Below are positions 19,706 to 42,236 of a stretch of DNA of 42,730 bases, piece after piece. Under the pieces are notes generated by a model. The model saw only the letters and a program-made list of their open reading frames with translations. It was not told the origin of the DNA and did not search any database. Each line of letters begins with the position of its first letter. Position 1 is the stretch's first letter. The stretch is from Alphaproteobacteria bacterium (GTDB lineage: Bacteria; Pseudomonadota; Alphaproteobacteria; UBA9219), in the NCBI GenBank assembly GCA_009779135.1, contig WREW01000009.1:1-42730 (forward strand). Direction: 5' to 3'. Position numbers and translations under genes: made by a program.

Positions 19706-19777
19706 GGCCGCCATGCTACTATGTGCCGGCTGAAAAAACAACTCGCCACCCTCAAAAAAGAGTGCTACGCAAACGAA

Positions 19778-20692
19778 ATGAAAAAAGAACGCATTCTGGT
19801 TATCCGTTTAAGTGCTCTGGGCGATATTGTTATGGCTATGGACGCCATGGCGTCCATCCGCGCGCACCACCCAAAAGCGGAAATAGGGCTTTTAACCATG
19901 CCCGCCTTTGCGCCTTTTGCGCATCAGATGCCGTGGTTTGACCGCGTGATGATCGACCCGCGTCCCAATTTCACCCAAATTATAAAATGGATTAAACTTG
20001 GTAAAGAGCTCCGTGCTTTTGCACCGACCATGGTCTATGACCTGCAATGCAAACCCCGCCAGAGCATTTTATTTCACCTTCTGGGCCGCCCCGCTTGGTG
20101 CGGCACGGCCAAAGGATGCCTTTATCCGCGCCCGCTGCTGGATCAAAGAAAAATCCATGTCAAGGATGGTTATCGTCTTTTGTTGGGCGTTGCGGGCGTG
20201 CCTGTCAAAAGCGCAGATCTTGACTGGTTTGATGATCCTTTGGACGGGTTTGATCTTCCCGCGCGTTATACCTTGCTGATCGCGGGCTGCTCGCCGCAGC
20301 ATCCGCATAAACGCTGGCCGATTGAAAACTACGCCGCCTTGGCGCAAGCGCTGGCTGAAAAAGGAATCGCAAGCATTGCCATAGGTACCAAAGCGGAAAG
20401 CGCTGCCATTGATGAGCTATGCTGCCTTGTGCCTTCCATCATCAATTTAACGGACAAAACATCCCTCAAACAAATAGCCGCCCTTGCGCGCCGCGCGCAT
20501 TTTGTCATCGGCAATGACACAGGCCCCATCCATATCGCCGCCGCTGTCGGCGCAAAAACGCTGGCCCTTTTCTCAGACCGAGGCACCCCCGCCTGGTCAC
20601 ACCCCTCAGGCCCCGACGCGCAATGGCTCCAAGGCCACCCGCTTGCAAAGCTTGAGGTGAGCGAAGTGTTGAAAGTTGTGACCTGTAAATAA
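19778..20692 (+). CDS. Glycosyltransferase family 9 protein, LPS heptosyltransferase-like
   Basis: A 304-residue GT9 enzyme of the ADP-heptose:LPS heptosyltransferase type (RfaC/RfaF/RfaQ group), which extends the inner core of LPS at the inner membrane's cytoplasmic face. Hallmarks are ILVIRLSALGDIVMAMDAM at the N-terminus, VYDLQCKPRQSILFHLLGRP, and the sugar-nucleotide motif GNDTGPIHIAAAVGAKTLALF near residue 245. The frame opens at 19721, but ATG 19778 gives the normal N-terminus with a weak AAGAG site. Which heptose position it serves cannot be told. Its stop TAA lies in the left arm of the following palindrome. Confidence 0.9.
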   Translation: MKKERILVIRLSALGDIVMAMDAMASIRAHHPKAEIGLLTMPAFAPFAHQMPWFDRVMIDPRPNFTQIIKWIKLGKELRAFAPTMVYDLQCKPRQSILFHLLGRPAWCGTAKGCLYPRPLLDQRKIHVKDGYRLLLGVAGVPVKSADLDWFDDPLDGFDLPARYTLLIAGCSPQHPHKRWPIENYAALAQALAEKGIASIAIGTKAESAAIDELCCLVPSIINLTDKTSLKQIAALARRAHFVIGNDTGPIHIAAAVGAKTLALFSDRGTPAWSHPSGPDAQWLQGHPLAKLEVSEVLKVVTCK

Positions 20693-20794
20693 CCCCCCTA
20701 ACTGTCATTGCGAGGAAAGACGGCGAAGCCGGCTTGACGCGGCAATCGCGGCGATGTTGCAGGGATTGCCGCGTCGGGCCTAGGAGGGGGGTTA
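20690..20794. repeat. Large intergenic palindrome between convergent genes
   Basis: The outer arms TAACCCCCC (20690-20698) and GGGGGGTTA (20786-20794) are exact reverse complements, and their ends are the TAA stop codons of GT9 and ftsA. Inside lie a short hairpin CGGC-GAA-GCCG (20721-20731) and a 12-bp stem GACGCGGCAATC (20736-20747) with GATTGCCGCGTC (20764-20775). TGTCATTGCGAGG opens the left half, as in a widespread class of bacterial intergenic repeats. It probably also acts as a two-way terminator, though no T-tract follows. A related half-copy lies at 41887-41926. Confidence 0.75.
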
Positions 20795-22126
20795 CCCCCG
20801 CACAGAAAACATCTGGGAAAGCCGCCCCATAAGAGAAGACCCCGCGCCGTCATAGCGCCCGGGCGCGTCAATGCCCTCGGGCGCAAGGGCGGTGACCAGC
20901 AAACCGGCTGTTGTTGAAAAAGCGGGGCCAGAAGTCGCCTCCGCAAGCCCCGTTGCAGACAGGCTGCGCGGCTGCATGCGAGCTTGGCTCATGGTAGGCG
21001 GCGTGATTCGTAAAGGCCTGCCAAGCCGCACCTGCTTGTCAAGAATACGGCTTGCAAGATCACGAATCCCCGGCATCTGGCTTGTGCCGCCCGTCAGCAC
21101 CACGCGCTTGCCCGCAGTTTCGGAAAGGCCGCTTTTGTCAAGGCGCGCGCGCACCATTTCAAAAATCTCCTCAAGGCGCGGCTGAATGATTCCGATCAGA
21201 TGGGATTTCGGCAGACGATTGGCAAAGGCAGGATCTTCTTCGCCCACCTGCGGCACGTCAATAGTCTCCCGCTCATCCAAACCCGAAAGCGTGGCGTTGC
21301 CGTAAAGCGTTTTAAGCCGCTCGGCATGCGCAAAAGTCGTCGTCAGCCCGCGCGCAATGTCGTTGGAGATATGAAGTCCGCCCAAAGCAAGCCCGTCAGC
21401 ATGAATCATATGCCCGTCAAAAAAGATTCCAAGACTTGTTGTGCCGGCGCCCATATCAATCACGGTGCAGCCAAGATCCATCTCATCCAAGGCAAGACAG
21501 GAAAGGCCGCTGGCCAAAGGCGCGGCCACAAGATGCTCGACCTCAAGATGCGCGCGCGCAATGGCGGTTTCAAGCGTGCGGGCAGGGCCGAACGCCGCCG
21601 ACACCAGATGATAATCAGCCTGCAACATGCCGCCGATCATGCCCAAAGGCTCACGAATCCCGCGCTGGCCGTCAAGCGTGTAGTGAATGGGAAGCGTGTG
21701 CAAAAGCTCCAGAGTATGGCCGTCCATATCCTCGGCCGCCATGGTCTGCGCCTCGGCAACAAGACGTTCCATATCATGCGCCGTGATTTCGCGCCCATTA
21801 AGAGGGAGATCAACATTGACAGTCTGTGAAAGAAGCTGAGCGCCGGCAATATTGACGATCACGCGCTCGATTTCCTCGCCGGCCATTTGTTCAGCCGCGT
21901 CCACAGCGGAAGAAACAGCGCCGCGCAGCACTTCCATGTCCGACACAAGTCCGGCGCGCACCCCTTCGGAAAGCTGATGCCCGATGCCCACGACATGAGG
22001 CTGGCCCTCTTCATCAAGCCGCGCAATAAAGCAGGCGATCTTGCTGGTGCCTATATCAAGAGCCGCCAGCGTATCGCCCTGCGTCGAGCGCGGTTTGCCC
22101 AAAAGCCATTGTGCCAAGCGGTTCAT
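20792..22126 (-). CDS. ftsA: Cell division protein FtsA
   Basis: FtsA is the actin-like ATPase that anchors FtsZ to the membrane and recruits late division proteins. The 444-residue protein has phosphate-1 motif DIGTSKIACFIARLDEEG at the N-terminus, phosphate-2 VIDMGAGTTSLGIF, and the adenosine motif VVLTGGTSQMPGIRDLA. The SHS2-type 1C domain lies in the first third. The last ten residues (MGRLSQMFSVRG) look like the amphipathic membrane-targeting helix. It starts on a TAATG overlap with ftsQ. ftsZ, nearly always next, is missing; the gene ends in a palindrome facing a glycosyltransferase. Confidence 0.97.
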   Translation of the reverse strand: MNRLAQWLLGKPRSTQGDTLAALDIGTSKIACFIARLDEEGQPHVVGIGHQLSEGVRAGLVSDMEVLRGAVSSAVDAAEQMAGEEIERVIVNIAGAQLLSQTVNVDLPLNGREITAHDMERLVAEAQTMAAEDMDGHTLELLHTLPIHYTLDGQRGIREPLGMIGGMLQADYHLVSAAFGPARTLETAIARAHLEVEHLVAAPLASGLSCLALDEMDLGCTVIDMGAGTTSLGIFFDGHMIHADGLALGGLHISNDIARGLTTTFAHAERLKTLYGNATLSGLDERETIDVPQVGEEDPAFANRLPKSHLIGIIQPRLEEIFEMVRARLDKSGLSETAGKRVVLTGGTSQMPGIRDLASRILDKQVRLGRPLRITPPTMSQARMQPRSLSATGLAEATSGPAFSTTAGLLVTALAPEGIDAPGRYDGAGSSLMGRLSQMFSVRG

Positions 22127-41210: not shown

Positions 41211-42236
41211 ATGTCCCCCTCTCGCCAAGCCACCTGTTGGATCCTCACAAAAGGCGTAATAGGCATGGATAATCAATGCCTTGGACTCGCCGATGCGTTG
41301 AAAACCACTCCGGTTGTGAAACGAATCGTCCTCCGCACGCCATGGAAGCAACTCGCGCCATACTGGCGTATGAATCTTAATTATGCATTAAGCCGCGAGA
41401 GTGACTCCCTTGCGCCGCCATGGCCGGATCTGGTGATCGCGGCGGGCCGCGCGGGAGGGACGGCGGCTTTGCTCCTCAAGCAGCGCGCGCGCAAACAGAG
41501 GCATCCTCTTGTGACGGTTTATATCCAAAACCCATTTATTGACCCGCGTCACTTTGATCTTGTGGCCGTGCCAAGACATGACAATGTGTGGGGCGACAAT
41601 GTGGTGACGACACGAGGCTCCATCAACCGCATAACACCTGCACTTTTAACGCGAGAAAAAGAAATATTCCGCCAGATGTTCGAGCCGCTGCCATCCCCGC
41701 GCATCGCGGTATGCATCGGTGGCCGCAACGCCGTCTATGATTTTGAAGAAGAGGATATGACAACACTCGCCGCGCAACTCGTAGAACTTGCCGAACAAAC
41801 GCAAGGCTCTTTGATGATAACAACCTCCCGCCGCACCGGCGAAAAAAACCTTTCCATTTTGCGCGACGCCCTCGAACAAACCTCATTGTCATTGGCAGGA
41901 GGGCCACAAGGCCCGACGCGGCAATCTCAGCATATTTTATGGACAGGCCAAGGCCCCAACCCCTATTGCGCCATGCTCGCATGGGCCGACGCCGTTTTAG
42001 TCACCGCCGACTCCGTCAACATGATCTCCGAAGCCTGCACCACAGGCCTACCTGTTCATGTGATTCCGCTAAAAGGCGGCTCCCCCAAGTTCCGCCGCTT
42101 CCACCAAAGCTTGCGCGATGACGGCCTGACGCGGCCCTTTCAAGGCAAACTGGAACACTGGTCTTATAATCCTTTACAAGACGCCGAACTCGTCGCCGCG
42201 CGGGTGAGGGCGCTACTTGAAACAATCACTTCCTGA
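41211..42236 (+). CDS. Mitochondrial fission ELM1 family protein
   Basis: A 341-residue protein of the ELM1 (DUF1022-type) family, named after a plant mitochondrial fission factor but widespread in Alphaproteobacteria with unknown function; the fold resembles GT-B glycosyltransferases. Seen: CWILTKGVIGMDNQCLGLADAL at the N-terminus, PDLVIAAGRAGGTAAL, VYIQNPFIDPRHFDLVAVPRHD, IAVCIGGRNAVYDF, and NPYCAMLAWADAVLVTADSVNMISEACTTGLPVHVIPL. AAGGAG lies ten bases before ATG 41211, so the upstream open frame from 41055 is disregarded. Residues 226-239 are encoded by DNA resembling an intergenic repeat. The 3' end overlaps the convergent gene by 11 bases. Confidence 0.9.
   Translation: MSPSRQATCWILTKGVIGMDNQCLGLADALKTTPVVKRIVLRTPWKQLAPYWRMNLNYALSRESDSLAPPWPDLVIAAGRAGGTAALLLKQRARKQRHPLVTVYIQNPFIDPRHFDLVAVPRHDNVWGDNVVTTRGSINRITPALLTREKEIFRQMFEPLPSPRIAVCIGGRNAVYDFEEEDMTTLAAQLVELAEQTQGSLMITTSRRTGEKNLSILRDALEQTSLSLAGGPQGPTRQSQHILWTGQGPNPYCAMLAWADAVLVTADSVNMISEACTTGLPVHVIPLKGGSPKFRRFHQSLRDDGLTRPFQGKLEHWSYNPLQDAELVAARVRALLETITS
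41887..41926 (+). repeat. Half-copy of intergenic repeat inside a coding region
   Basis: The stretch starts TGTCATTG and ends GGCCCGACGCGGCAATC (41910-41926). The latter 17 bases are the exact reverse complement of 20764-20780 in the palindrome after ftsA, and GACGCGGCAATC also matches its left half. TGTCATTG and a following AGGA match the palindrome's opening. The reading frame is kept, coding for a Gly/Pro/Gln-rich loop in the ELM1-family protein. This resembles the palindromic elements of Rickettsia that insert in frame in genes. Confidence 0.6.

Follow-up and report, generated by a model that had tools for sequence, protein, structure and literature searches.

A probable insertion of a CGTC-type REP into the reading frame of an alphaproteobacterial ELM1-family gene

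Two repeat-bearing loci in the window

The window, i.e. the whole stretch of 42,730 nt that was analyzed, carries a repeat in two settings (Table 1): inside a gene of the ELM1 family and in the spacer that separates a GT9 gene from ftsA at their 3' ends. R1, a covariance model of the repeat built from 24 copies with the ELM1 copy among them, returns exactly two matches in the window, one in the ELM1-family gene and the other being the intergenic arm that starts at 20703, and an Rfam search of the window matched no family. The sequence at 41887-41926 is TGTCATTGGCAGGAGGGCCACAAGGCCCGACGCGGCAATC, and each of its 40 nt agrees with the repeat, in the two stems as well as at the conserved ends; the copy scores 63.1 bits against R1 (E 1.4e-17 in the window), a value to be read with its own presence in the training set in mind. 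The assignment of the gene to the ELM1 family and the integrity of its reading frame across the repeat, both proposed in an earlier note made from the letters alone, hold up. So does the 17-base match between 41910-41926 and the reverse complement of 20764-20780, which in a repeat search extends to a 24-nt, 92% inverted pair.

The intergenic element occupies a usual REP location, between the 3' ends of genes (Di Nocera et al. 2013, PMC3733652). As it consists of a 45-nt arm and a truncated partner, and the ELM1-family gene has a single partnerless arm, the earlier description of the gene copy as half of an intergenic repeat is right with respect to the usual inverted dimer; the copy is nonetheless a complete REP monomer in itself. 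Similarly, the 40-base length given for the element applies to the monomer, whereas the inserted stretch defined by homology measures 45 nt.

Table 1. Coordinates of genes and repeat features in the window and of in-frame REP dimers in same-genus genomes
Feature	Position or locus	Strand	Evidence or remark
CDS, PF06258 (Mito_fiss_Elm1) family protein, 341 aa, GT-B-like predicted fold	41211..42236	+	Pfam E 6.7e-100; AF2; Foldseek
Solitary REP monomer, S (40-nt) type, TGTC...GGCAATC, in-frame translation LSLAGGPQGPTRQS	41887..41926	+	pattern, covariance model R1, frame
Inner hairpin GGGCC-ACAA-GGCCC of the ELM1 monomer	41901..41914	+	stem varies by paired changes family-wide
Segment of 15 codons (about residues 225-239, give or take a few codons at either border) without counterpart in homologues	41883..41927	+	alignments, BLASTP
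Intergenic REP arm, L (45-nt) type	20703..20747	+	pattern, covariance model
Truncated inverted partner arm, inner half only, source of the 17-base match	20764..20780	-	unreported by R1
GT9/heptosyltransferase gene, one side of the intergenic element	19721..20692	+	
ftsA, convergent gene, other side of the intergenic element	20792..22126	-	
GT9 with in-frame REP dimer	L168:1042-2112 (G003:C136)		second arm degenerate; about 56 extra residues
PrmC with in-frame REP dimer	L324 (G005)		
AnmK with in-frame REP dimer	L289 (G005)		
Chorismate-binding/glutamine-amidotransferase fusion with in-frame REP dimer	L315 (G005)		
UbiV with in-frame REP dimer	L323 (G005)		
TrmB with in-frame REP dimer	L290 (G005)		
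PolA, contig-end fragment	L281 (G001)		both arms in linker between two nuclease domains

A query of genome contigs with the ELM1-family protein by itself gave no match; a query by alignment did. The spacing between L221 and W244 is 22 residues in the window protein, as against seven in 25 of the 26 related-genome homologues and eight in the remaining one; among 43 further homologues, taken from named records, it is seven in 40 and 9, 12 and 16 in the other three. Residues 226-239, put forward earlier as a lineage-specific insertion, thus correspond closely to a stretch (about 225-239) that is missing from all 26 aligned relatives. The protein is thereby 15 residues (45 nt) longer than with the usual loop, and the REP core accounts for 40 nt, or 42 with its tail; no clean target duplication making up the difference was found at the site. 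The nearest homologue, at about 61-64% identity, is too distant for reconstructing the exact insertion event. In the AlphaFold2 model of the protein (mean pLDDT 93.0), the only residues with confidence below 50 are 1-3 and 231-237, and the predicted fold resembles, in Foldseek searches, the GT-B enzymes MGD1 and MurG and the UDP-GlcNAc 2-epimerases, with modest TM-scores of about 0.5.

A genome-wide family of inverted heterodimers

The strict repeat pattern TGTCATTGN{10,40}GGCAATC occurs 127 times in the 1.545-Mb genome (62 forward and 65 reverse), and the same pattern read backwards as a control has 0+0 matches genome-wide. The covariance model yields 153 genome matches, i.e. about 150 copies, a count scored on 150 first-look candidates only, so that weak copies may be missed. 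The earlier judgment that the match between the two loci exceeds chance is thus borne out by the contrast between real and reversed patterns and by the model score of the ELM1 copy, and the search for further copies that it had suggested brings up about 150.

Arms of the family come in two sorts, S (40 nt), with an inner hairpin of the form GGCC-NNNN-GGCC, and L (45 nt), which alike start with TGTCATTG and end with GGCAATC. The stem is laid out as two 5-bp helices with an internal loop between them. In the 24 aligned copies, the outer helix, ATTGC/GCAAT, is nearly invariant, with its first two positions, A5-T44 and T6-A43, unchanged throughout, and the inner helix shows paired changes. The preceding tag is TGTC in all 24 and CGTC in many copies from sister genomes, and the unpaired tail is mostly CTC or CCC in this genome and CCA in several sister-genome copies. 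The outer flanks of many copies in this genome are often C/T-rich, which could reflect either a target preference or a part of the element.

Grouped within 150 nt, the 127 copies form 83 clusters. Most often seen are S+L- (22) and L+S- (13), the strict pattern ends being separated in most cases by 16 or 19 nt. Of the 38 two-element clusters, 36 share a single inverted polarity (35 S/L heterodimers, one S/S); the other two are one pair of the opposite polarity and one S-S-. A looser partner search pairs 112 of the 127 copies and leaves the ELM1 copy among the 15 unpaired ones. In its usual form, the repeat pairs a 40-nt with a 45-nt arm as an inverted heterodimer.

The published CGTC-tagged REP superfamily is, according to Di Nocera et al. 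2013 (PMC3733652), found mainly in the alphaproteobacteria, mostly as inverted dimers and often as heterodimers. Based on its tag, the A-T start of its stem, its inverted dimers and the lack of a transposase (see below), we file the present repeat within this superfamily as a longer variant; its stem and loop sizes fit none of the four described families, and hence the placement is made at the superfamily level only.

Copies within genes of this and related genomes

For the genome containing the window (G000), we inspected flanks of up to 2 kb around the repeat clusters and sought ORFs spanning a copy. The ELM1 ORF alone extends far to either side of its copy and has a recognized domain on each, and intragenic copies are hence rare in this genome. 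Ten other copy-spanning ORFs that were tested have no Pfam match and gain no support from codon scores, a measure that is weak also for ELM1 itself. The count of copies inside genes called for by the earlier note thus confirms the ELM1 copy and leaves it as the sole one clearly interior to a recognized conserved gene. A degenerate copy (L143:2001-2042, on contig C6) lies in the N-terminal extension of an FtsW/RodA-like ORF whose start may be downstream. Neither of the commonest dimer lengths in this genome, 101 and 104 nt, is divisible by 3, whereas 18 of the 36 dimers sampled in sister genomes are; this difference might account for the lower frequency of intragenic copies here than in the sisters.

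The sister genomes were sampled, rather than fully surveyed, by reading the surroundings of part of their copies. They have their own versions of the repeat, including short CGTCATTGCGAGC...GCAATC forms, and the sample contains seven cases of in-frame REP dimers inside conserved genes, distributed over three same-genus genomes (Table 1). PrmC has 44 extra residues relative to the E. coli enzyme with zero missing, and the alignment closes around them; AnmK has 48 residues where its best PDB match has 6, and both it and the chorismate/glutamine-amidotransferase fusion gain about 40 residues. The match of UbiV to its NCBIfam model is split at the insertion point, and a PDB search with this protein gave no match. 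The GT9 gene of the window lacks the dimer of its G003 counterpart. All the well-supported cases are dimers or have a degenerate second arm. TrmB is the weakest of the seven: its two arms lie inside the ORF but upstream of the matched domain, and its assignment as an intragenic case leans partly on general background on the TrmB family. Candidates in M16, head-tail connector, EipB and S74 genes were set aside, since their copy is not within the matched domain and might be at the end of the true gene or beyond it.

The frame used in ELM1 is open in 52 of the 63 S-type copies, and repeat monomers and dimers alike are often open in one or more frames; hence, survival of a copy in frame requires no special mechanism. 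Among the few forward copies in conserved genes, six of eight share the ELM1 frame (S-L-R/A), a number too small to build on.

Origin of the ELM1 loop and comparison with known REPs

We consider it very probable that a dispersed CGTC-type REP was inserted in frame into the ELM1-family gene in this lineage and is now a tolerated loop of 15 residues. The CGTC-type REP is a short palindromic repeat, probably mobile and non-autonomous, the mobility of its copies being suggested by their number and their lineage-specific sites. One copy would have entered the gene in this lineage, insertion appearing the likeliest route of gain, and the frame was kept, since 45 nt were gained in all and the frame used contains no stop. 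The repeat would now be translated in vivo as a 15-residue loop, probably disordered, at the surface of the second GT-B half, where it links a helix to a strand. It has most likely been retained through tolerance rather than function.

That these residues are merely an ordinary variable loop with a chance likeness to the repeat we regard as extremely improbable: the site does tolerate length change, as the three of 43 distant homologues with 2, 5 and 9 extra residues indicate, but none of the distant homologues has residues aligned with the REP-coded 231-236, and neither the fit of all 40 nt to the repeat nor the absence of reversed-pattern matches would be expected of chance. It is also very unlikely, if somewhat less so, that the element is selected because the loop, or a hairpin in mRNA or DNA, provides a regulatory or protein function. 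The inner hairpin of the ELM1 copy is perfectly paired, and REPs have been proposed as RNA elements (PMC3733652); against this, when the copy is folded in silico as single-stranded DNA within its gene, the predicted energy is ordinary (z -1.28, with 25 of 200 shuffles folding equally well), the loop is predicted to be disordered, and the REPs of the relatives reside in unrelated proteins with no function in common.

A quite possible variant of the insertion scenario, which we stop short of calling probable, is that a full dimer of about 101-104 nt was inserted and later lost one arm, leaving a single arm that preserves the frame. This would accord with monomers being the minority in the genome, with the dimeric state, degenerate or otherwise, of the well-supported intragenic cases in relatives, and with the indivisibility by 3 of the commonest dimer lengths. 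However, the sequence downstream of the ELM1 copy shows no remnant of a second arm, and 15 of the 127 copies are likewise single by the same test. Under either course, in-frame insertion followed by tolerance stays the reading that we prefer for the ELM1 loop.

A search for the Y1 transposase (PF01797, RAYT) found none in the window's own genome. Among the five sister genomes, there is one Y1-type match (L347; G004:C139:3430-3786), with no REP within the surrounding 2.2 kb. These negatives agree with the lack of a dedicated transposase for CGTC REPs stated in PMC3733652. A more speculative proposal, which we advance with considerable doubt, is that CGTC REPs are still being mobilized into genes by an enzyme other than Y1/RAYT in this probably Micavibrio-related genus, recurrently lengthening conserved proteins in frame. 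A genus in which repeat families vary and intragenic insertions are clean would in any event be a good place to seek a CGTC-REP transposase, and the ELM1 case illustrates a route from a non-coding repeat to protein sequence.

The present repeat shares with the superfamily, as described in PMC3733652, the TGTC/CGTC tag (TGTC or CCTC variants being allowed), the AT at the first two stem positions, inverted dimers that are often heterodimers, the want of an associated transposase and occasional intragenic copies. It is distinguished by units of 40-45 nt, with a 5-bp outer stem, an internal loop and an inner stem, whereas the families CGTC-1 to CGTC-4 have an 8-9-bp stem and a 4-5-nt loop; its overall length is greater. 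The superfamily tail is mostly CCA and that of the present repeat mostly CTC; dimers of the superfamily are predominantly head-to-head, and those here are, in nearly all two-element clusters, inverted with one polarity. The same source assigns RPE-4 and RPE-6 of R. conorii to the superfamily, and it reports intragenic CGTC REPs for several species, those Rickettsia elements included. The likeness to Rickettsia palindromic elements perceived in the earlier note is apt to the extent that RPE-4 and RPE-6 are CGTC REPs that occur in intergenic positions as well as within genes, in frame in conserved proteins, a link taken from that source; intragenic CGTC REPs were, however, already known outside Rickettsia. 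The lineage is also another one, and its genome has one clear intragenic copy. Like the RAYT-mobilized REPINs (GTAG REPs), the repeats described here form inverted doublets of about 100 nt at many sites, but they differ in their tag and in the absence of a Y1/RAYT gene from their own genome. Hence, the phenomenon of intragenic CGTC REPs is already known, insertions of this sort being most familiar from Rickettsia, and what is new is the variant and the lineage, a non-Rickettsia one with several lineage-specific cases in conserved enzymes.
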